A DNA stretch of 64,000 nt from Telmatactis stephensoni (Eukaryota > Cnidaria > Anthozoa > Actiniaria > Isophelliidae), in assembly GCA_029948255.1 (NCBI GenBank), contig JALIZF010001889.1:310001-374000 (forward strand). Reading direction: 5' to 3'. A model generated the notes under the pieces. That model saw only the letters and a list, made by a program, of their open reading frames with translations, searched no databases and had not been told where the DNA came from. Below are positions 18,797-64,000 of this stretch, one piece after another. Every line of letters begins with the position of its first letter. Positions within the stretch are counted from its first letter, which is position 1. A program made the position numbers and the translations under genes.

Positions 18797-19510
18797 TTAG
18801 TTTTTAAGAGAGTAGAAGAGATTTGTATCATCAGCAAACAGGTGGAATTTCAATATTGAAGAGCAAGATGAAATATCATTTATATACAAAAGAAAAAGTA
18901 GTGGACCTAAAACAGAGCCTTGGGGCACTCCACATGACACAGAGGTATATTCTGAAGAAACATGTGATAAAGTAACATATTGCTTCTTGTTTGATAAATA
19001 AGAAACAAACCATTCATATGAGAGACCCCTAATTCCACAACAATAAAGCTTACTAAGAAGTATTTGGTGGTTTAATGAATCAAAAGCTTTTTGAAGGTCT
19101 AAAAAATACCGCATGAAAATTTCCCTTCCTCTATAGCTCTTTGAATTTTGTCAACAATGAGTAATAAAGCATGAGTGGTTGAGTGCTTGGCTCTAAAACC
19201 AAATTAAGACTCACAAATGATACGTTGTTCTTCCAGGTATTTAACAAGTCTTTTATGCATAAGTTTTTCTAGAATTTTATTCAAATTAGAAAGAAGTGAT
19301 ATGGGCAGGTAATTAGATAGTGAAGTTCTTGAGCCTTTTTGAAGATCGGAATACCTTTTGCAACTTTCAAGTTTTCAGGCACTAGGCCAGTCGAAAAAGA
19401 AAGATCAAAAATGAATTACAGGGGCTTAGAGAGAATGGTTTTTAAGATTTTTAGAAGAAAGGTAGGTATACTGTAAGGTCCATTGGCTTTTTTAGAAGAT
19501 AGACTATCTA
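18797..19510 (-). pseudogene. Non-LTR retrotransposon 1: catalytic reverse transcriptase region
   Basis: The open part (18,797-19,114) shows L-D-L-Q-K-A-F-D, G-V-P-Q-G-S-V-L-G-P and F-A-D-D-T-N, the RT fingers/palm blocks with the catalytic FADD. Further 5' (19,115-19,510), the SLLSNLNKILEKLMHKRLVK-like fingers block and a KHSTTHALL block are readable but broken by stops and frameshifts. CR1/Jockey-like order. Inactive. Confidence 0.75.
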
Positions 19511-22208: not shown

Positions 22209-22439
22209 CTATTGATGGAAAATATAGTGAACATTCGGTGATTGAATGGTCGATAAACCATGGGTCATTAATGTAGTTGACGGGTCTATTACAAGCAGCT
22301 AATAAGTATTTGTTGGAAACATTATGGCTGCAAGGGGACTAAGACCTACTGTAAGTGGTCATGATAAATCAATTCAGTATTATAAAACGGAAAACGGGGC
22401 GGGTTGTTCAAATATGTAGATATAGAATTGCCGGCTTAC

Positions 22440-24371
22440 CTTTAAAACTACGAAGAACATCAACTTCACGAATGTAGCTTTCAACTTCATCTTTAAGCCG
22501 CTGTTTTAGATCTATTATTTGTAATAAATCTGGCTGAATCCTTCTTAGCAAATCCTCTATATCGTGCCTATCTCGAATCAGTGATACCAACTGGATCAAT
22601 ACATCGTTAGAAACAGGCAGAGGCGATGGTAACTTGAACAAAAAACACTTCCCGATTTCATTACAGATGAATTCAATATTGTTCATGAGCTCCAATGAAT
22701 GAAACCGATATTCTCTAGACCTCTCCAGAACCAGATTAACAATGGACAATAACATTGCCACCACTTCTGGTGAAATTGACTTCTCAGGTAGTTTTTTACA
22801 AATATCACGAAGCATCTCACCAGATGCCAATAAAGTGGTTCTTTGTTCAAAAACAGGCACCAATCTCTCCAGGCTAGATTGCACCTGTGGGATGATATGA
22901 GATGACATTGAGAGCTGGCTGGATATTGCTAGAATCATACACACTACGTCACCCAGAAATTCAGGATCATGACGAGATTCAGGTAATCTTCGAGCTAGTG
23001 CATCTATGGACAACTCCAAACAAGACAAAACTTTTATTTTCAGATCTTCTTGGAAATCAGACCAATTGACTTTTTCCAAAATCTTTGTACTTAATTCGAT
23101 TATGTCATGAATTAGTGGAACTTCAGGATCTTTTGACAACTGTTGGATAAGTGAATTCATTCTGTTGTGTAGACTTGATGCAAGTCTCACTGTAATATCT
23201 TTACGGCCAGACAAATCCAATTTACTCAAGAGTTTCATATGTTCTTCTATCACGTGTAGCAATACATTAGGGTTACTTTCAGTATTTGTCATCAGCAATT
23301 CCCACTGCTTGAACATTAAAGTCATTCTGCTTTCCATACCAGATGCAAGTGTTGCCTGAACATCTCTGTCAAGATTAGACAAATCTAACTCACCCAAGAG
23401 TTTCAAACACTCTTGTAGCACTTTTAGCAGCACATCATGGTTGGCTTCAGTATTTTCCATCAGAAATTCCCACTTTCTAAACATCGAAGTCATTCTGCTT
23501 TCCATGCCAGATGCAAGTCTTGCCTGAACATCTCTGTCAAGACTAGACCAACCCAAATTACTCAACAACTTCATATGTTGTTGCATCACTTCTGACACCA
23601 CATCAAGGCTGACCTGAGGATCTTTAAACAACTGTTTGATCACTGCAGTCATCCTATCCTCTATGGAAGATGCCAATTTTGCTTTCTCACTGTCACTAAG
23701 GGTTTTCAAACACAACTCATTCATGACCTCTACATGTTGTTGAAACACTTTTGATACCAGTTCAGCGCTGACCTTAGGATCGTTAAGCAACTGTTGGATC
23801 GCTGAAGTCATTCCGTCTTCTATACGATATGCAAGTTTCGCTCTTTCATCACCAGGCAGCAACCAGCAATTCATGTTTTTCAACAGTTCTTTATATTGCT
23901 GCATTACTCGTAACAGTACATCAACACTCTGTTCAGAGATTTGTGTGGTTATGGATGACAATAGTTCATCTAAGAATAAAGCAAATTCAGGGCGCTCTGA
24001 AAGGTGTTTATTCAATAATACCAACATCTCGTCAGGTTCACAATTTTCTAATGGTTTTAGCCATTTGTCAACGGATTCACTGAATATTCCGTGCCTCAAT
24101 TCCAAGTTCGTCTTCTTAAGCTCATGTATTTGATCTTCCAGTTTTTGAATCTTTCTCCTGTGTTCTTCTTGTTGTTCTTCCATCTGATCTTCTGCTTGTT
24201 TTCGTTTTCTAGCCTCAACCATCAGTTGGTTGTCTTTTTCCTTCAATTCCATGCACTCCTGGTAAGTAAGGGATATTACATAATCTTCTCGTAGATCATC
24301 ATCACAAGAGAATGAGTGTCTACGTCGTCTCCCAGCGGAAGATGCTTTTGACTTTTCTTGGACAATTTTAT
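22440..24371 (-). CDS. DED/helical-repeat protein A, exon 4 (coiled coil + helical repeats)
   Basis: A single 1,932-nt exon, phase 1 at both ends. The first about 110 residues hold a basic patch (G-R-R-R-R-H-S) and then a strong coiled coil rich in E, K and Q. The remaining about 530 residues are all-helical with repeating blocks of about 50-55 residues. Each block carries an R-M-T-type helix (L-A-S-x-x-E-x-R-M-T) and a V-M-Q-Q-H-x-x-L-L-type helix, at least five times before the pattern degenerates. This resembles an armadillo/HEAT-like solenoid without matching a family I can name. The paralogue at 62,321-64,000 has the same organisation. Likely a cytoplasmic oligomeric scaffold (inference). 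Confidence 0.8.
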
Positions 24372-24872
24372 CTAAGGAAGACAAATAACAAGAAAGAAGA
24401 ACGTATTTTATAGAACATATTCTGTGTTCCTTTGCCAATGTTTTATTTTCTGTTCAGTAGGCCTAGGGGATATACAGTGTGTTTCATACACCATAACACA
24501 ACTTAAAGCTACACTGTGTCGGGTACAGATTTAGGGAAGTTCAAATTATGAAGATGTGACAAGATTCAGTGTAAGATAAATAGTAGTGTCATGCTCGGGG
24601 CCTGGATACAAATTCAGAGAAATGATATTTCACAAAATAGGAAAGAGAACACGTACATCACAATTGGACTGAATTTCGCTGAAATCTTAGTTAGGTTCAA
24701 ACATATCTAAATAACAATCACGATATACACCTAGGGATACACAGTCGAGGATTTACACTGATAAACAACTGTTAATAAACAACTAGACTGCAAATGAAAG
24801 AGAACGCATCAAATGTGCTTTCCTGGCAAATGGAGTCAGTATATGTAGATAGTTAATATGTAGTTTTATAAC

Positions 24873-25010: not shown

Positions 25011-25256
25011 TAATCAAAATCACTTTTCAAGTCCTGAAACTCGGACCTGTAATTTATACACCTGTTTCAAAAAACGTTATCGGGAAAAGGCCTCAGATTT
25101 GAATTACTAACCTATAAAAATAGCAGAATATCAACATGACTATTCAGTCTCAACTAGCTTGCCTCAAGCTTATACAACAAAGACCTTTATTCGTTGATGT
25201 TTAAAATCGATGCCGGAGTTGCAAATGCAACAAAGTGAGTAAAGTGCTGCATGTAC

Positions 25257-25730
25257 CCATTCTCCTTTTCACTCTAGTAGTAAAGACTTGAAGACTCTCG
25301 CCCAAAAACCTCTTTTGAAATAGGCGTTTATCAGGATTGATATGTGCACACTGACCTTGAACTTGAGAAACAACCAGCTCCCAGAAAGCATTTTTATATT
25401 CTTTTTCATCCAGCATGACGTCCACATGGATTTCTTCTCCATTACTCAACTCCTTCAGTTCTGGTATTCCATTAAAAGCCTTCTCAAGTTTCTCTCTGAG
25501 TGAGCCATCTATGTAGTTTTGCCATAGTTGTTTTAGTGAAGACAGACATGATGTTTTAATCATAAAACATATTGAGCCTCCTCTCATCTCAATAACCTGC
25601 ATTGCTACAGGCAGTGCACTTCCTACAAGTTCTATCAATTCAGGGTACGTTTTGAATAATACCACAAGAGCAGCTGTTCCAAGAAAAACATGAGTTTTTC
25701 TGTCTTTCAAGACAGTTGTCAGAGAAAGCA
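25257..25730 (-). CDS. DED/helical-repeat protein A, exon 3 (hydrophobic stretch + TRADD-N-like domain)
   Basis: The acceptor is ATTCTTTTTCAG. The best donor is ATGG|GTACAT at 25,256, chosen because it gives a 474-nt exon that is phase 1 at both ends like its neighbours. The open frame otherwise runs to a stop at 25,201, which would be a shorter isoform. After a hydrophobic stretch (V-F-L-G-T-A-A-L-V-V-L-F), a compact domain of about 80 residues contains S-L-K-Q-L-W-Q-N-Y-I-D-G-S-L and later a V-D-V-M-L-D-E-K-E-Y pattern. From memory this resembles the TRADD-like N-terminal domain common in cnidarian signalling proteins. That name is tentative. Confidence 0.6.
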
Positions 25731-25942
25731 CTGAAAAAGAATGATTATGGTGAGCACACCATTAAAGTCTTTCTTTTGTTATTTGGCTTGCTCAAGCATG
25801 ATGATTGATTTAAAATATTGCAAAAAATGTACTTATTTGAATATTTGTTGAGCAAATACGTTTTAATGATGATAAGAAAAATCAACAGTGAATAGTCAAT
25901 GTTTAATACAAATCTTTTAAAAATAGTCACAAAAAATGTTAC

Positions 25943-35062: not shown

Positions 35063-35640
35063 CTATGCTTTTTCTCTCTGCATTCGTTAGTATAATGCAG
35101 AACGAAAACAATGAGTTTTGATAAGAACAGTAATTATATCATATATTATCCAAGAAGGCATTTTCAAGGTCTCGCAGGCAAGAAAAAGTAATTATCATCA
35201 TCATTATATATTTATTCGCATGTAAATTTGTTTTCATCAGTTTTGGCATGAATCTTTTTTCAATATTACAATTGAAACCTTCGTTTATTCTATTTTGTAT
35301 ATATAATAACGAACGATCGACTGCTGATTTCAATAATGAAGTTAAGGGGTGCACGCTTGAGCTGGTTTGAATGCAACGCTTTGATTTACATAACTTTCAA
35401 GATGTAAATTCTTTGTTCTACGACGCTGTATTACTCGGGTCATTCATTTTTTAATGTAATCGTGTATGGCTGGGATAATATTGTGATCTTATTTGACTTG
35501 TTTATTATTGGCACATTTGATGGCAGATGTGGTCAATTTAAAAAGGAATTGTTGCAAATTCAGTTAACCGAAATTAAAGTCCTATTCCGGGATACTTAAT
35601 ATCGACAAAAACAAGATCAAATACAGCAGTTTTCAAGTCC
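35063..35640. other. Intronic/intergenic, nothing recognised
   Basis: AT-rich, no supported exon. It lies just 3' of the donor of gene A exon 1. Confidence 0.4.
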
Positions 35641-35644
35641 TTAC

Positions 35645-35945
35645 CACTTCTATATGATTCATATTCGTCAACTTTGTCTTCAAGAGCTTTTAATCCCAAT
35701 ATCTTTGATAGGTCTTTCAATAGTTCAGTTTTATCTTGTCCCAGCTTCTCAGCGGTTTCGAGCTCTACAAGCAGCTTTCTTGCAGTTGTTATTCTATCTC
35801 TAGCTTCATTAGACAGGGTCGAACGGAAACGATCCTTAAGATCTTTAATACCTCTAGCTGTACTATCAACGTATTCATCAAGATGTTTAACAGCATCGGC
35901 GAATAGATTATCATAATGAAATTTAACATCTTCGCTAACAGGCAT
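35645..35945 (-). CDS. DED/helical-repeat protein A, exon 1 (death-effector-like domain)
   Basis: It starts at ATG 35,945, opening M-P-V-S-E-D-V-K-F, and encodes 100 residues to a strong donor (AGTG|GTAAGG), phase 1. Residues about 25-97 form six predicted helices. A D-L-K-D-R-F segment is followed by K-L-L-V-E-L-E-T-A-E-K-L and L-L-K-D-L-S-K-I-L-G-L-x-x-L-E-D-K-V-D-E-Y-E. The order and spacing match death effector domains, where an L-L-x-x-L-x-x-x-G-L stretch precedes the last helix. An AG at 35,953 could instead be an acceptor of a 5' UTR intron. Role inferred: homotypic recruitment in an apoptosis/innate-immune complex. Without splicing the frame would end at 35,574. Confidence 0.65.
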
Positions 35946-36417
35946 TCTTTTGCTAGAGATTAGCAACATGTACAAATTTACCAAACAACAAGTTAGCTGT
36001 TTAGTCTACGGTGGGCTATAGATGCTTCCGCCTTAGTCTAGCAACCAGTCTTCCTCGACTATTCCTTAAGGTGGTAACTCGTGGATAGCATATAAGTAAA
36101 GCACTTGAATTGAATTTTAATCTAATATATTAGTAATTCCTCATAGAAAGTGAAGTCCTGTAAGGTCAATGTATGACCAGCGAAGAAGGTATATATTGTG
36201 TTATCAGTGTGGTGAAATAATTCCTGATTGGTCAAAAGACAAGAGAGATTTCTGAAATATTTGTAAAATTTCATATGATTGTACGATTGGCAAATTAAGC
36301 ATAAGAATATCAAGAAGATCATTACAAAACATTTCATGTAAATGTACTTTACAATTGTTGATTGATTTGTTTGTGCCTCAATGGCGGGCAATTGATTTGC
36401 TTTGTTTGCTGACTTAC

Positions 36418-39663: not shown

Positions 39664-39669
39664 CAGAAG
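39664..39669. repeat. Target-site duplication CAGAAG, left copy
   Basis: Identical to 45,605-45,610. In the intact foldback (minus strand near 29,615) the corresponding sequence ACTCAGAAGCAAT has one CAGAAG, the pre-insertion state. Confidence 0.85.
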
Positions 39670-40874
39670 AGTAGTAGGAAAGTAAGAGTTCTGCGCCACC
39701 TGAGCGCCGGTGCAGGGGAAGTCACGCCCCCAATAGAGGAGATGTCACGCGACAGTGCTGCAAGGGGAGTCACACAACAGCGACCAGGGAGTCACGCGCC
39801 GGGGATCCGCTTGCAGGATTGAAAACTCCATTGCACAGCAACCAAACAAATATTCCAGAGCAGAAAAACAAAATAAATTCTTTTCAGTGCGTCTGAGTAA
39901 GCTTCCATCACTCGTGCGACCGAGAAACAAACGTAATACTGAGAACTCCGTTGCGCAGCAACCGAGCAACGTTTTCGGAATTTCAAAACATGCTACACTT
40001 AAGGGTCTATTGTGTTCGATTCAACCACCAGCAAAGAACAATATGGTTGACTATCATGTTGAAAGACATTCCTGGTTTGATTTGAAAAATTTGGAACGTT
40101 ATAAAATCTTCAAAATACCAAAAACAAATTCTTGAAATACTAGAGTTGGCACACTAAAAACGATACATTTTAAAAATACTTGAGAATTAAAGACACCACC
40201 GAATGCGCGCCTTTGAAACACAGTGTTTTGAAAGAAACATAATTACCGAACAAAATGACCATAAGGGATGTGTGTGTCTTTGAAACACAGTGTTTTGATT
40301 AACATAATTACCGAACAAAATGACCACAAGGGATGTGTGTGTCTTTGAAACACAGTGTTTTGATTAACATAATTACCGAACAAAATGACCAGGACGGACG
40401 TGTGTGCCTTTGAAACACAGTGTTTTGATTAACATAAATACCAAACAAAATGACCGCGAGGGATGTGCGCGCCTTTGAAACACAGGTTTTTTGAAAGAAA
40501 CATAAATACCGAACAAAATGCACAGCGAGGGATGTGCGCGCCTTTGAAACACAGTGTTTTGAAAGAAAACCTATAAATACCGAGCAAAATGCACACTCAT
40601 AGTGCCCACAAACCCACGAAGAGTCGTCATCCCCTTTCCCCCTCCCCACCCCCACCCCAACCCTTCCGGGGGAGGGGGGGGGGGAGGGGTTGACCCACAC
40701 GGACGGCGAAGCCGTCCGAAGGGGAACCTCTCATCCTCGGATCCAACACTTTCTTACGAATGAAATACTGGGAACAGTCCGTTGCGCAGCAACCGAACGA
40801 CGTTTTCGGAATTTCAAACAAGATCAAATCTAATTTTATTAAGTACAACAAATACTGTCTTCAGTTCCATCTGG
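39670..40874. repeat. Left terminal inverted repeat of the Polinton-like element
   Basis: 1,205 bp, nearly identical to the complement of 44,401-45,604. It includes three copies of a GTTGCGCAGCAAC-centred motif, an array of about 66-bp units and a C/G-rich tract (40,630-40,690). Frames within the TIR appear twice as mirror images and look non-coding. Confidence 0.9.
40205..40595. repeat. Six about 66-bp tandem units inside the left TIR
   Basis: Each unit contains CTTTGAAACACAGTGTTTTG followed by a CATAAxTACCGAACAAAATG phrase. Mirrored in the right TIR at about 44,700-45,075. The AAACACAGTGTTT core is itself palindromic. Confidence 0.85.
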
Positions 40875-40884
40875 CTTTAATATA

Positions 40885-40890
40885 TTTATT
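40885..40890 (-). terminator. Polyadenylation signal AATAAA for the ATPase gene
   Basis: AATAAA on the minus strand about 50 nt after the ATPase stop, at the junction with the left TIR. Confidence 0.5.
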
Positions 40891-40939
40891 TAAGTTACAT
40901 TCAGTTCTTAATATTTTTCCCAGCCAGGAATAGATTTCA

Positions 40940-42373
40940 TCACGGCTCTCTGAATCGTTCTGAACGTCTTGGGGGTTGGAATACCTGTCCTCTGTACTTG
41001 TGCTCATCTTGATAACGTATCCACCTGAGAGGTTTTTCTTGGCTGGATGGGGGAGTAGGTGGAAACTCTCCTGGGACTGTACTCGACAGAGGAGTAAAAG
41101 GAGTTGGTTGATCCGAGGGAGCTTTTAATGGGGTCGACGGTATTTCCTGTGAACTAGCAGTTTTAAAAGGCGTTCTAACTTTGGATGTCAGACGTTGAAG
41201 AAAGGAGGGTTCTTTCGGTGTTGCTGTGGCAATACCACTGTCACTGGGCAGAGTTGCTGTCGGGACGTTTTCTGAGGTCATCACGTTAGGAGGTTGACTC
41301 TGAACAGACATGGTTGGTACGGTTGGTGTCTGTCTCGGTATCGTGAAACCGTTATTGGAGAGTTGCTGTTGATGGACGAGGTAACGAGTCAACAGTGACT
41401 CATATTGTTTGGTTTTCACCTCCGGAGGTAGGGAAGGGTCATTCAAAATAGTGTCCATCTGTTCTGCCAATTCCTGCATGACTTTAAGAACGGGTGACTG
41501 TAAGTACCCCTGACGCTCAAAATAGTTAGCCATGGTCTTCATCGAATCTGTTTGGCCTCCAGTCTGCGATAGGTGGGCGTCGTTCGGGAGAACATTTGTA
41601 CGCAATCGACACTCCTCCCTGGTGTTAGGTTTGAGATCGACAAACAGGTAGCCGTACGACCGCTGAACGGCGGCCTCGTACTTTTGAACAAACTGTTCCG
41701 TCTTTCCTGGGTACATTTGTTTTCCTAATGTCATCATCTGCAATTTGTCTCTTGGGTTTTTAAACAAGACGAGGTACGATGCATTTAGACTCAAGGTGCG
41801 CATGATCCTGCCTTGAAAATAGACATTTTGCAAGAGGAAGACGACACTGAGATTTCGGTGATGGGAACCCTTTGTGAACAAATTCAGGATCCGTTTGTCG
41901 TTGGAGGTCTCGGTCATTTGATCATCGATGACCATGAGATTGTTGATATTTGGATCAAAGTACCAATCTTCGTCGAGGTCATGAGGTATCCCTTTGACAA
42001 ACTCGATCCCAGGTATAGTTTTGAGCATCTGGTCGTAAGCTGGTTGCCATTGGGAATAACTCCAAACAATACGTTGAGGAGGGGGTTGAATGACTTGAGC
42101 TCCGTGCTCAAGTAGGTTCTGAACCCAGACCGTCTTTCCGGAGCCAGTCATTCCAGCCACTAAGGCTGTGAAGGGATGGAGTAACTGAAAACGGTCACAT
42201 TTGGTTTCCACAGGCTTCGCCTGGGGATAGTGAGTAAACCGCTGACCCCCTTTTGTGCATTTTTCCTGGCCAAGCCAATACGCCCGCTGCGAATTGTCCA
42301 ACTTATGAGTTCTACTTAAATGAGTGTATATGTTTTGTTGCGGCTTGCCGCATATAGGACACATCCGCACCAT
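40940..42373 (-). CDS. A32/FtsK-HerA-like genome-packaging ATPase of the Polinton-like element
   Basis: 477 aa, intact, starting at ATG 42,373. Residues 5-24 hold a C-x2-C...H-x4-H zinc-finger-like motif. The ATPase core follows: Walker A G-M-T-G-S-G-K-T at 74-81, Walker B L-M-V-I-D-D at 146-151, a sensor-like F-L-L-Q-N near 179-183, and K-N-P-R-D (205-209) as a possible arginine finger. Residues about 310-477 are a Pro/Ser/Thr-rich low-complexity tail. Such ATPases pump DNA into capsids in Polintons, adintoviruses and large DNA viruses. Here no capsid gene accompanies it, so packaging would need helper-supplied shells (inference). Transcribed divergently from the other two genes. Confidence 0.85.
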   Translation of the reverse strand: MVRMCPICGKPQQNIYTHLSRTHKLDNSQRAYWLGQEKCTKGGQRFTHYPQAKPVETKCDRFQLLHPFTALVAGMTGSGKTVWVQNLLEHGAQVIQPPPQRIVWSYSQWQPAYDQMLKTIPGIEFVKGIPHDLDEDWYFDPNINNLMVIDDQMTETSNDKRILNLFTKGSHHRNLSVVFLLQNVYFQGRIMRTLSLNASYLVLFKNPRDKLQMMTLGKQMYPGKTEQFVQKYEAAVQRSYGYLFVDLKPNTREECRLRTNVLPNDAHLSQTGGQTDSMKTMANYFERQGYLQSPVLKVMQELAEQMDTILNDPSLPPEVKTKQYESLLTRYLVHQQQLSNNGFTIPRQTPTVPTMSVQSQPPNVMTSENVPTATLPSDSGIATATPKEPSFLQRLTSKVRTPFKTASSQEIPSTPLKAPSDQPTPFTPLSSTVPGEFPPTPPSSQEKPLRWIRYQDEHKYRGQVFQPPRRSERFREP

Positions 42374-42415
42374 CTCACGTCTTTTGAAGAATGAGACCCA
42401 TTCTTGAAGGAAACG

Positions 42416-42424
42416 CTATTTATG
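42416..42424 (-). promoter_or_regulatory. TATA-like box upstream of the ATPase gene
   Basis: CATAAATAG on the minus strand, about 45 nt before the ATG. The other two genes of the element have similar boxes at similar distances. Confidence 0.45.
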
Positions 42425-42454
42425 GGCTATGACCTAGATCTGAATAGAATGGAT

Positions 42455-42885
42455 TTAACATTCTATCTAATGTAGATTCTACTAGATACTAGATTCTAAT
42501 ATCTTCTAGATTTGAATATAGTCTAGTGTAGATTCTACTAGATTCTAGTTAGATTCTAGATTCTACTAGATACTAGATTCTAGCTAGATTCTAGTTTCCT
42601 AGCTAGTGTAGATTCTAGTATTCTATAGCTATATTCTAGTGTAGATTAATTCTAGTTTTCTATAGCTAGCTAGTGTAGATTCTAGTAGTCTAGTAGATTC
42701 TAGTAGTCTTAACTAGCTAGTGTAGATTCTAGCTAGATTCTAGTAGTCTAGTGTAGATTCTAGTAGTCTAGTAGATTCTAGTAGTCTAGCTAGTGTAGAT
42801 TCTAGCATTCTACCTAGATTCTAGTTAGATTCTAGGATTGTAGTCTAGATTCTAGTATTCTAGCTAGATTCTAGTGTAGATTACA
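42455..42885. repeat. TCTAG-rich degenerate simple repeat between divergent genes
   Basis: About 430 bp built of AGATTCTAG, TAGTCTAG and CTAGTGTAG words in irregular order, rich in CTAG tetramers. It separates the divergent ATPase and small-protein genes and could act as spacer, origin or regulatory region. Function unknown. Confidence 0.8.
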
Positions 42886-42935
42886 TCCTTCAAATTATAA
42901 AATTCCAACTGCCTTTAGTTGACAATGGAAAAAGG

Positions 42936-42944
42936 GATAAATAG
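42936..42944 (+). promoter_or_regulatory. TATA-like box upstream of the 108-aa gene
   Basis: GATAAATAG about 52 nt before ATG 42,996. Confidence 0.4.
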
Positions 42945-42995
42945 GAATGGTTTTTTGTTGTCCTTTCATTTGATGCAATCGGCTGTGCAGACAAC

Positions 42996-43322
42996 ATGAG
43001 CCACTTGCTAAGAGAAAATTTTGGCTATTTGTGCCATTTAACCAATTGTTCACCTAACCAAAGAAAGGTTTTACTGATCACCGCTAGTCCGGAACAGGTT
43101 CATGCCATTAGTGAAGTTTGCTCGAATTTATCAAAAGGCCTGATCCCCATAAAGGACGCACAAAAAGAAAGACTTAGAGAGCATGTGGACGACATACGTG
43201 AGTTAGCCAACCCATCCGTCCCTTTCAAAACCAAGAAACAAATTTTGGCTCAACGGGGCGATGGTTTTGTATCCGATGTCATGTCACCCCTGATGTCGGC
43301 TTTGAGCCTGTTTTTGTTATAA
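42996..43322 (+). CDS. Small helical protein of the Polinton-like element (core/pX-like)
   Basis: 108 aa, intact. It begins M-S-H-L-L-R-E-N. There is a helical middle with A-S-P-E-Q-V-H-A-I-S-E-V and K-G-L-I-P-I-K-D-A-Q-K-E-R-L, a basic K-T-K-K-Q-I-L-A-Q-R-G segment near residue 82-92, and a hydrophobic C-terminal tail (last about 15 residues). This pattern recurs in small proteins of Polinton/adintovirus-like elements that have been compared with adenovirus core protein pX/mu. I recognise the pattern from memory, so the name is an inference. It might bind DNA or disrupt membranes. It is followed 57 nt later by the next gene with its own TATA-like box. Confidence 0.65.
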   Translation: MSHLLRENFGYLCHLTNCSPNQRKVLLITASPEQVHAISEVCSNLSKGLIPIKDAQKERLREHVDDIRELANPSVPFKTKKQILAQRGDGFVSDVMSPLMSALSLFLL

Positions 43323-43333
43323 ATATTCCTGTG

Positions 43334-43340
43334 TATAAAG
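43334..43340 (+). promoter_or_regulatory. TATA box upstream of the Cys-rich protein gene
   Basis: TATAAAG about 40 nt before ATG 43,380 and only 12 nt after the preceding stop codon. The short spacing suggests each gene has its own transcript. Confidence 0.45.
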
Positions 43341-43379
43341 AAGAAGCTCATTTTGACGTTGATTTTTCGAGGGAGCAAC

Positions 43380-44201
43380 ATGAAGAGAGCACGTAGCGAT
43401 TCCACTGACACTGAATACGATTCAGAGCATTCTCATGACGGGAGTATTCACTCAGAACAGGACTTGTGGGACAAGGAAGATATCGAACAAGTTCTACAGG
43501 ATCTCTCCCAGAGTATCCCAGAAGATAAAGCTCTAGCGTTTCTCCATACTCTGGCGGCTTCAAAAAGTATTTTATATTGGAATTCCCATGGTGAGATGCT
43601 GTATCACGAACGAAGAATTCCCGTCACCAACATGGCAGAGCTTATCGAGTATGCCATGCTACCTTTGAATCTAGATGTTAAAGTGCCCCGTGGGTTGAAA
43701 ACGTTCACTCAAGGATTATCGGAGATCGGTGTTGACAAGAAACTAATCCGTAATAAGAAGTTGCTGGCGGATCTGGTTGCTAGGCAACCGGAAGAGGACG
43801 AGACAGACAGTGAAACAGGTGACAAATCCTCTGAAAGAGAAAGTTTCGAGTCGGACGGTGAAAGTGTTGGTGAAAGCTTAGAGCCAGAGGAGAGTTCCGA
43901 ACCGGAGCTTTCCGAATTGGACGAGGAACCCAGAGAGTGTCACGTTTGCCGTGACTTTGTGAAGTTTTACTCAATTCCTGTGGTTGAATGCCCTTGCTGT
44001 TTGTGGCGTGAAGCATATTACTGCCGCGAAAACGAATACATCGAATGTGATGTTTGTACTCACGTCTTTCCAGCCAATGCTCAGACCACTAAAGTTAAAT
44101 TTTGTCGCTGTACAGACTGTAACGCTGTACACCAACAGTCCCTAAAAACCAAGAAATTAAAACTCATGGACGACCACCAAGAAGAATCAAGTGAATTGTA
44201 A
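43380..44201 (+). CDS. Acidic, cysteine-rich protein of the Polinton-like element
   Basis: 273 aa, intact, starting at ATG 43,380, the first ATG after the TATA box. The N terminus is basic then Asp/Ser-rich. Residues about 45-135 form a compact domain with I-L-Y-W-N-S-H-G-E-M, V-P-R-G-L-K-T-F and D-K-K-L-I-R-N-K-K-L-L motifs, a layout I have seen in accessory proteins of Polinton-like elements. Residues 136-185 are highly acidic (E/S/D). A Cys cluster follows (about 187-247: C-x2-C, C-x-C-C, C, C-x2-C, C-x-C-x2-C), suggesting a zinc ribbon or RING-like fold, then a lysine-rich tail. Function unknown. A regulatory or nucleic-acid-binding role is possible. Confidence 0.7.
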   Translation: MKRARSDSTDTEYDSEHSHDGSIHSEQDLWDKEDIEQVLQDLSQSIPEDKALAFLHTLAASKSILYWNSHGEMLYHERRIPVTNMAELIEYAMLPLNLDVKVPRGLKTFTQGLSEIGVDKKLIRNKKLLADLVARQPEEDETDSETGDKSSERESFESDGESVGESLEPEESSEPELSELDEEPRECHVCRDFVKFYSIPVVECPCCLWREAYYCRENEYIECDVCTHVFPANAQTTKVKFCRCTDCNAVHQQSLKTKKLKLMDDHQEESSEL

Positions 44202-44214
44202 AATCGATCACTTG

Positions 44215-44220
44215 AATAAA
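44215..44220 (+). terminator. Polyadenylation signal AATAAA
   Basis: 14 nt after the stop of the Cys-rich protein gene. Confidence 0.5.
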
Positions 44221-44284
44221 AGGAATGACTTTGAGACTGATTTGTTCCTTACTAAGTGGTTCTAAATTTTGGGCTGAGGATAAA

Positions 44285-44357
44285 TGGCCAAAATATCAGT
44301 CGGTTAGAGCGCGGGACTGTAGTTCCTGAGGCCGCCGGTTCAAATCCGGCTGGAGAG
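44285..44357 (+). pseudogene. tRNA-Tyr-like remnant (anticodon GTA) inside the Polinton-like element
   Basis: The anticodon arm (CGGGA-CTGTAGT-TCCTG), variable region and T-arm (GCCGG-TTCAAAT-CCGGC) are intact and the D-loop is recognisable, with an intact B box. The 5' acceptor half and outer D-stem do not pair with the 3' half (TGGAGAG), and there is no intron. It therefore looks like a 3' portion of a tRNA-Tyr gene lying between the last gene and the right TIR. Confidence 0.7.
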
Positions 44358-44400
44358 ACTATCTTTTTCGAGAAAAAAAAATAAAAATAAATAAATAACG

Positions 44401-45604
44401 CCAGAGGGAACTGAAGACAGTATTTGTTGTACTTAATAAAATTAGATTTGATCTTGTTTGAAATTCCGAAAACGTCGTTCGGTTGCTGCGCAACGGACTG
44501 TTCCCAGTATTTCATTCGTAAGAAAGTGTTGGATCCGAGGATGAGAGGTTCCCCTTCGGACGGCTTCGCCGTCCGTGTGGGTCAACCCCTCCCCCCCCCC
44601 TCCCCCGGAAGGGTTGGGGTGGGGGTGGGGAGGGGGAAAGGGGATGACGACTCTTCGTGGGTTTGTGGGCACTATGAGTATGCATTTTGCTCGGTATTTA
44701 TAGGTTTTCTTTCAAAACACTGTGTTTCAAAGGCGCGCACATCCCTCGCTGTGCATTTTGTTCGGTATTTATGTTTCTTTCAAAAAACCTGTGTTTCAAA
44801 GGCGCGCACATCCCTCGCGGTCATTTTGTTTGGTATTTATGTTAATCAAAACACTGTGTTTCAAAGGCACACACGTCCGTCCTGGTCATTTTGTTCGGTA
44901 ATTATGTTAATCAAAACACTGTGTTTCAAAGACACACACATCCCTTGTGGTCATTTTGTTCGGTAATTATGTTAATCAAAACACTGTGTTTCAAAGACAC
45001 ACACATCCCTTATGGTCATTTTGTTCGGTAATTATGTTTCTTTCAAAACACTGTGTTTCAAAGGCGCGCATTCGGTGGTGTCTTTAATTCTCAAGTATTT
45101 TTAAAATGTATCGTTTTTAGTGTGCCAACTCTAGTATTTCAAGAATTTGTTTTTGGTATTTTGAAGATTTTATAACCTTCCAAATTTTTCAAATCAAACC
45201 AGGAATGTCTTTCAACATGATAGTCAACCATATTGTTTTTTGCTGGTGGTTGAATTGAACACAATAGACCCTTAAGTGTAGCATGTTTTGAAATTCCGAA
45301 AACGTTGCTCGGTTGCTGCGCAACGGAGTTCTCAGTATTACGTTTGTTTCTCGGTCGCACGAGTGATGGAAGCTTACTCAGACGCACTGAAAAGAATTTA
45401 TTTTGTTTTTCTGCTCTGGAATATTTGTTTGGTTGCTGTGCAATGGAGTTTTCAATCCTGCAAGCGGATCCCCGGCGCGTGACTCCCTGGTCGCTGTTGT
45501 GTGACTCCCCTTGCAGCACTGTCGCGTGACATCTCCTCTATTGGGGGCGTGACTTCCCCTGCACCGGCGCTCAGGTGGCGCAGAACTCTTACTTTCCTAC
45601 TACT
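44401..45604. repeat. Right terminal inverted repeat of the Polinton-like element
   Basis: Complement of 39,670-40,874 with a few substitutions (for example near 45,175 and 45,240). It carries the mirrored 66-bp array and GTTGCGCAGCAAC motifs. Confidence 0.9.
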
Positions 45605-45610
45605 CAGAAG
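45605..45610. repeat. Target-site duplication CAGAAG, right copy
   Basis: Pairs with 39,664-39,669. Confidence 0.85.
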
Positions 45611-45614
45611 CAAT

Positions 45615-45921
45615 AGACCTTTTTGCCGTTACACTATTTTCCAACTTCGTGCATCTTGAAACAAAGAACTGCATCGTAGAATGTGCGGGATGTGAACTTC
45701 TTTTGTTTGAAATGAAACTTCCCTTTGTCTTCCAATCAAGAAGACATTAATAAGGCTCCACGGTTCTGTTGCTCGGAGCCTTATTTTTATGCGTTCTTGA
45801 TTGGAAGACAAAGGGAAATTTTATTTCAAACAAAAGAAGTTCACATTCCGCACATTCTACGATGCAGTTCTTTGTTTCAAGATGCACGAAGTTGGAAAAT
45901 AGTGTTACGGCAAAAAGGTCT
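45615..45921. mobile_element. Foldback element with 130-bp arms
   Basis: AGACCTTTTTGCCGTTACAC at the left is mirrored at the right (GTGTTACGGCAAAAAGGTCT). The arms are almost fully complementary around a loop with a nested GGCTCC hairpin (45,750-45,790). Inserted just outside the right end of the Polinton-like element. Confidence 0.75.
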
Positions 45922-62070: not shown

Positions 62071-62320
62071 CTATTGATGGAAAATAAATGGTTATAGTTA
62101 ACATTCCGCACTGTATGGTAAATAATCGATAAGAGTTGATAACTGGTCAGTAGGGACTACAAGTGGTTGGTACGTGGTCGGTAAGTAGATAAAGGAAACA
62201 TAAAGCAAAATGACTAGTTCAAGCAGTCATTAGCTAATTTGAGTCATTATTGATCAGTTGTTATAAAGCGTTGAAAAAATTTATTCAAATGCGTCAGTAT
62301 AATTAAGAAAAGTGTCATAC

Positions 62321-64000
62321 CTTTCAAGCTACGAAGAACATCATCAAATTCAGAAATGTTGTTTTCGATTTGAACTTTAAGCTCTTTTAGATCCACTAAT
62401 AACTTTGGCTGAATTCTTTCTATGAAATCCTTTACATGATGGCTAACCGAGTATCTAGGCATATTCTCCATCATTGATATCAACTGGATCAATACATCAT
62501 TAGAAACCGGCAGGCTGGATGGTAACTTGTTCAGGATGATATCCATGGAACGTCGAAACTGAAACTGTTCAGGCATCTTCACAATCAGACTGTTGACAAC
62601 AGACAACAACATTGTTACCACCACTTCTGACGACATTGCTTTCTCTGGTATCGCTTTACAAATGTCACCAATCATCGTCATTATTTCGTTACCGCTACAT
62701 GCACTTTGAGAGACAGTTCGTTCAAAAGCAGGCAGTAATTTTTCCAGCTGAGATTGCACTTGTGGGATAATATCAGACGATACTGGAATGGTGCTTGACA
62801 TTGCTAGAACAGCATTCACTACATCTCCCAGAAATTTACGATCATGCGGAGGAGATTCAGATAATTTTTGAACTAGTATGTCCATTGACAACTCCAAACA
62901 AGATAAAATTTTCATCTTCAAGTCTTCTTGGAAATCAGACCAACTGACGTTTCCCAAAATCTTTGCACTTATTTCAATTATGTCATGAATTACTGGTACT
63001 TCAGGATTTTTAGACAACTGTTGGATCAGTAAATTTATTTTGTTGTGTAAACTAGTTGCAAGTCCCTTTTTAATATCTTCACCACAATCCAACTCGCTCA
63101 AGAGTTTCCTGTGTTCTCGTATCACTTGTAACAGCACATGATCATTTACAAGAGGATTCTGTGTTAACGTTTGGAACACCACAGTCATTCTGTCCTCCAT
63201 GTTGGACGCAAGCCTCTCTGCAATATCTTCACTAAGACTATGCCAATTCAATTTAATTAATTCAATGATTTGCAGCACATCAAGGTTGATTTCAGAATTT
63301 TTCTTCGCCAATTCCCACTGTTGGAACAAAGTCTTCGCCCTTTCTATGCCGGATTCGAGTGTTACCTGAACATCTCTATGAAGCACAGACAGATCCAACT
63401 TACTCAAGATGTTTATGTTTTCTTGTATCACTTGGAATAACTCATTAGAGCTGACTTGATCATGATGAGCTTTCACCCAATGCCGGATCACTAAACTCAT
63501 TCTGCTCTCTATATTCAATGCAAGTTTTGTCTGAGCATCTTTATCAAGGACATCCCAAAATTTGTTGAAACTGCTCAACACCTGCACATGTTGTTCCATC
63601 ACTTGTAAAAAGACATCAGAGCTAACTCCAGGACGTATTATCAAATGTTGGGTTATTAAAAACATATTGTTCTCTATAAAAGATACAACTTTTCCTCTAT
63701 CATCTTTATCAAGGAAACGTTTCACGGCATCCAGCAAATTGACATATTGCTGCATCACTGGTACCAATGCACCAGGGTTGACTAGTTCAGGAGATTCCAA
63801 CAATTTTTGGGTTAATAAAGTCATTCTTTTCTCTACGTTAGATGCAAGTTGTACTCTGACGTCATTATCCTTGGAGTACTTTGCCAAATTGTTTAACACC
63901 TCTACATGTTGTTTCATAACTTCCAATATTATAGGACCTTTCTGTTCTTTGCTGATCAACGACAAAATTTTCACAAATAATACCGAAGATTCAGGCAGCT
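62321..64000 (-). CDS. Helical-repeat paralogue B, large exon (continues beyond the window)
   Basis: Open from the right window edge to a phase-1 donor (AAAG|GTATGA). About 560 residues of the same helical repeat type as gene A exon 4, with repeated L-A-S-N-x-E-x-R-M-T and V-M-x-Q-H-V-x-L-L motifs, and a C-terminal half (from S-W-S-D-F-Q-E-D-L-K onward) highly similar to A. The upstream coiled coil, TRADD-N-like and DED-like exons, if present, lie outside the window. It is intact within view, so B is probably a functional tandem paralogue. Confidence 0.8.

Follow-up and report, generated by a model that had tools for sequence, protein, structure and literature searches.

Polintons, also called Mavericks, have ends of the form AG...CT. 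Their target-site duplication is given as 6 bp (PMC10045372), and one account puts their size at 20 kb or larger and lists PolB, integrase, C5 protease and packaging ATPase as core genes that are carried together (PMC3671162). In the present study, a stretch of 64,000 nucleotides from the sea anemone Telmatactis stephensoni (contig JALIZF010001889.1, positions 310,001 to 374,000; hereafter the window, to which all coordinates refer) was analyzed, and a 5,935-bp insertion at 39670-45604 with Polinton-type ends and an A32-type packaging ATPase was examined. With a probability of about 0.45, the insertion is read as a helper-dependent, non-autonomous Polinton-type element of the sea anemone, in which a three-gene module was retained that favors the element's own packaging.

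Compared with Polintons/Mavericks, including adintoviruses, the element shares the 6-bp duplication, the long terminal inverted repeats (TIRs) and the A32-type packaging ATPase, but it has one of the four core genes, no fitting capsid gene and a length of 5.9 kb (compare PMC3671162). Because only one of four core genes is present, it is filed as non-autonomous and of Polinton type, rather than as a Polinton. Most Polinton-like viruses (PLVs) are described as being without the Polinton polymerase and integrase (PMC11071308), and some genomes are described with adenovirus-class virion genes but without these two (PMC11071296). PLVs and meldviruses of this kind have lost the same two Polinton genes as the element; however, they keep capsid genes, with PLV sizes given as 14-40 kb (PMC12220804), whereas the element has no fitting capsid open reading frame (ORF). 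Transpovirons and virophages of giant viruses resemble it as small linear elements that are associated with a larger virus in the manner of satellites (PMC3671162), but neither the virophage set of six core genes, two capsid genes among them (PMC3671162), nor the transpoviron set of a PolB derivative with a helicase (PMC11071308) is present in the element. Tailed-phage satellites are reported to carry homologues of helper genes, by which packaging is redirected to their own DNA (PMC12324425); the logic proposed here is alike, but the viruses and proteins are unrelated, and for the element such behavior is a prediction. In the literature searched, no short ATPase-keeping Polinton was described; most subscription journals were outside its reach, and an earlier description is possible.

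Results

The element begins with AG, ends with CT and is flanked at both ends by a perfect 6-bp duplication, CAGAAG (Table 1). As the TIRs fix the ends, a 6-mer would match by chance in 1 of 4,096 cases. A 6-bp duplication together with long TIRs is a Polinton-type footprint, and the integrase-type insertion claimed in the first-pass annotation agrees with it; the ends, the duplication and the ~1.2-kb TIRs on which that claim was built were all read or computed from the sequence. The two TIR arms were aligned over 1,222 columns, and the outer stretch 39670-40868 showed 5 differences from its partner (4 substitutions and 1 indel). The arms are near-identical, and therefore the insertion is young, or recent copying between the ends has made them alike. 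Within each arm, a 65-bp unit is repeated in tandem, and these repeats are candidate protein-binding sites. The GC content of the element is 43.3%, vs. 37.6% for the window, in which one copy of the element was found. A 115-nt inverted repeat (45636-45900, 95% complementary, 35-nt spacer) begins 31 nt past the right end of the element.

The unique part of the element is filled by three ORFs of 477, 108 and 273 amino acids (aa). In the ORF inventory of the element, there was no further stop-to-stop ORF >183 aa, the 183-aa one being located in the right TIR, and therefore there is no room for a polymerase or integrase. Protein-primed PolB was not found (no unassigned stop-to-stop ORF >183 aa), nor was an RVE integrase (ORF inventory; no Pfam integrase match for ORF 44255-44581 or any of the three genes). 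Major and minor capsid proteins were likewise not found, as judged from the absence of an ORF of suitable size and of any match of the three genes to a Pfam capsid family, and the same held for a PLV or virophage major capsid protein (Pfam on the three genes; ORF sizes). No C5-type cysteine protease was matched by Pfam in the three genes and ORF 44255-44581, the ORFs covered by that scan. The earlier statement that polymerase, integrase and capsid are lacking was borne out by the ORF sizes and the Pfam scan of the three genes. An element without replication and capsid genes of its own (ORF inventory) has one trait of a satellite, and from the missing genes it would depend on a helper.

Of the ATPase family, 34/34 members matched Pfam Pox_A32 at E values of 1 or lower (best 6.8e-07); the ATPase of the window taken alone fell 0.1 bit short of the cut-off. 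Walker A and B motifs were matched in 34/34 aligned rows, and the best structural match of the ATPase model was the STIV packaging ATPase B204, with middling scores. An A32-like packaging ATPase, as first annotated, is supported by these three results, and a packaging role would follow by homology. In a PDB sequence search with the ATPase alignment, the top match was a GPN-loop GTPase (E 0.0075). A C2H2-type finger is fused to the ATPase in 25/34 aligned rows; as the finger-ATPase architecture is common to the coral relatives, it is no satellite trait in itself.

The small protein belongs to a family of 18 aligned rows with 33 invariant columns, and its last 18 residues have a mean Kyte-Doolittle value of 1.68. 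No usable family was found for it in Pfam, PHROGs or PDB sequence searches (best PDB E 0.21), and its earlier description as 'core-like' gained no support from them; the best E value in PHROGs was 0.045. The Cys-rich protein was correctly recognized as a third gene, with an intact ORF and four CxxC motifs. Four CxxC were present in 19/21 aligned rows (two in P0139 and P0147), and 16 of the 19 shared an exact spacing of 17, 19 and 21 residues. Weak S27e-type matches were found (PDB sequence search: best ribosomal S27e, E 0.016), and the motifs are likely to form paired zinc ribbons, as predicted from their sequence.

The motif ATAAATA was found three times only in the unique region, both strands considered, once ahead of each of the three ATGs (Table 1). 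For a single gene, a first-order simulation gave a chance of 0.0029 that this motif occurs 40-80 nt upstream; the value is a guide and not a test, as the motif was chosen after inspection. Candidate poly(A) signals were located past the stops of the ATPase and Cys-rich genes. The divergent genes are separated by a low-complexity CTAGATTCTAG-type array, which is possibly a scar or deletion junction, or a regulatory region. A tRNA-like stretch (44293-44351, + strand), read from its sequence as Tyr(GTA), lies just inward of the right TIR and was the sole gathering-level Rfam match in the 64 kb (tRNA, 30.5 bits; gathering 29). It was rejected as a working tRNA gene (no acceptor stem, none by ARAGORN, fold z = 0.37). 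MicroRNA and snoRNA matches in Rfam were under gathering scores, most of them inside a G/C-run hairpin of the TIR, and were treated as chance.

Relatives were counted as clusters at E up to 0.001, giving 451 for the ATPase, 30 for the Cys-rich protein and 17 for the small protein. By this sequence search the ATPase family is by far the widest of the three, short proteins being harder to detect by the same search. Named relatives among the best 120 of the 451 ATPase clusters were from the sea anemone Actinostola (11) and the coral Oculina (3), and those among the 30 Cys-rich clusters were from Actinostola (4) and the sea anemone Exaiptasia (1), names that point most probably to a sea anemone host; the Actinostola rows of the two families were on contigs of different size. 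The longest contig was <3 kb for 23/30 Cys-rich and 16/17 small-protein rows, and these short contigs may be transcripts. Contigs of equal size (2095, 1647 and 1231) appeared in both the small-protein and the Cys-rich lists, where at least 3 such coincidences were obtained in 0.0001 of trials with jittered sizes (mean 0.13). The two genes together span 1,206 nt in the window, and the coinciding contig sizes suggest that the pair recurs elsewhere. The existence of families for all three genes, together with the recurring pair, argues against a meaningless remnant. A contig size of 16562 nt was common to ATPase relative P0011 and small-protein relative P0167 and was found in no Cys-rich row, and no size was common to the Cys-rich list and the 28 ATPase rows compared. 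The three-gene set together is therefore known from this window, support elsewhere covers the small and Cys-rich pair alone, and the relatives could sit on full-length elements. Viral contigs scanned with single proteins and family alignments gave no relative, nor did prokaryote genome contigs scanned with the ATPase alignment, as expected for an animal element.

Table 1. Positions of the features of the element, in window coordinates
Feature	Position	Strand	Description or basis
Target-site duplication, left copy	39664..39669	.	CAGAAG; read directly
Left TIR	39670..40891	+	99.3% identity to reverse complement of 44385-45604
65-bp tandem unit, left TIR	40209..40562	+	5.4 copies; Tandem Repeats Finder
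Candidate poly(A) signal AATAAA	40885..40890	-	50 nt past ATPase stop; motif search
Conserved C-terminal tail of ATPase family	40908..40949	-	Frame differs from ATPase ORF; alignment, frame comparison
ATPase, 477 aa	40940..42373	-	C2H2-type finger at the N-terminus; P-loop domain of A32/HerA type carrying Walker A and B motifs; C-terminal part long and of low confidence
ATAAATA box	42417..42423	-	50 nt upstream of ATPase ATG; motif search
CTAGATTCTAG-type array	42473..42882	.	Low complexity, between divergent genes; Tandem Repeats Finder
ATAAATA box	42937..42943	+	59 nt upstream of small-protein ATG; motif search
Small protein, 108 aa	42996..43322	+	Family of unknown function; hydrophobic last 18 residues
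ATAAATA box	43319..43325	+	61 nt upstream of Cys-rich ATG; motif search
Cys-rich protein, 273 aa	43380..44201	+	Conserved N-terminal domain, acidic linker, four CxxC motifs
Candidate poly(A) signal AATAAA	44215..44220	+	14 nt past Cys-rich stop; motif search
Right TIR	44385..45604	-	Pairs with 39670-40891; ~1.22 kb
65-bp tandem unit, right TIR	44712-45065		5.3 copies; Tandem Repeats Finder
Target-site duplication, right copy	45605..45610	.	CAGAAG; read directly

Elsewhere in the window, an ORF with a TRADD-like N-terminal domain (25204-25761, - strand; 24.4 bits, above the Pfam cut-off) and one with a death-effector-like domain (35577-36005, - strand; 31.5 bits, below the Pfam cut-off) are perhaps host immune or cell-death genes, as judged from these domain matches. 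Two long ORFs (22411-24453 and 62250-63998, both - strand) are alike by eye and possibly paralogous host genes; neither reaches the cut-off of any Pfam family. A reverse-transcriptase fragment (RVT_1, 55.7 bits; 18800-19150, - strand) is a retroelement remnant.

Discussion

In the proposed mechanism, the integrase and polymerase of a full-length relative would act on the shared ends, copying and inserting the element. Polintons are reported from the sea anemone Nematostella (PMC4642659), and helpers are therefore plausible. The three genes of the element would be a retained module with its own promoters. The A32-type ATPase, perhaps led by its zinc finger to the TIR repeats, would favor the loading of element DNA into the capsids of the relative, the other two proteins, one small with a hydrophobic tail and one resembling a zinc ribbon, being putative core or regulatory partners. 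That the element is a packaging satellite is plausible, and the mechanism is attractive for two reasons: of the core genes, it is the motor alone that was kept, and packaging is reported to be redirected by tailed-phage satellites (PMC12324425).

The main rival, to which a substantial probability short of one half is given, is that a full-length Polinton or PLV of the same animal recently gave rise to the element by internal deletion, that helper enzymes moved it, and that the three genes are functionless leftovers that look fine only because the insertion is young. Several observations favor it. The near-identity of the TIR arms fits a young or recently copied insertion. The ATPase ORF of the window stops at 40940, and the conserved tail that follows is out of frame; a Trp-containing tail of this kind is present in 9/11 relatives of the tree group of this ATPase (absent from P0011 and P0013), and the frame change may be a true lesion or a sequencing error. 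The motor core is untouched by it, so that the description of all genes as intact in the first-pass annotation stands for the small and Cys-rich ORFs, which are full-length, and for the ATPase core, but is weakened for the ATPase tail. The array between the divergent genes could mask a deletion junction, and the 16,562-nt contig size common to ATPase and small-protein relatives would fit a full-length element. Against an internal deletion, the compact layout with a box ahead of each gene and the seemingly recurrent small and Cys-rich pair are both weak arguments, as genes passed down from a full-length element would show them as well.

It is improbable that the element, as a helper-dependent transposon, has an ATPase that no longer packages, and that its finger-ATPase, small protein and zinc-ribbon protein instead regulate, bind DNA or act on the host, e.g., to silence a competitor. 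The finger fused in most aligned rows and the resemblance of the Cys-rich protein to a nucleic-acid-binding zinc ribbon would fit such a role, but the Walker motifs conserved in every aligned row and the B204 match favor a retained motor. Of similarly low probability is a split (multipartite) sea anemone PLV of which the element is a single segment, with motor and core genes here and the replication, integration and capsid genes on an ATPase-less, TIR-sharing partner, each needing the other. The genes present complement those that the element is missing, but no partner was seen, and the packaging ATPase is one of four core genes described as occurring jointly in Polintons (PMC3671162).

Satellites of larger viruses are familiar mainly from phages and from the systems of giant viruses. 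If short elements keeping only packaging-type genes are selected for, an animal would host satellites of its own Polinton-type viruses, and such selected packaging-gene elements would, if this is true, be an indirect sign that animal Polintons still form particles.
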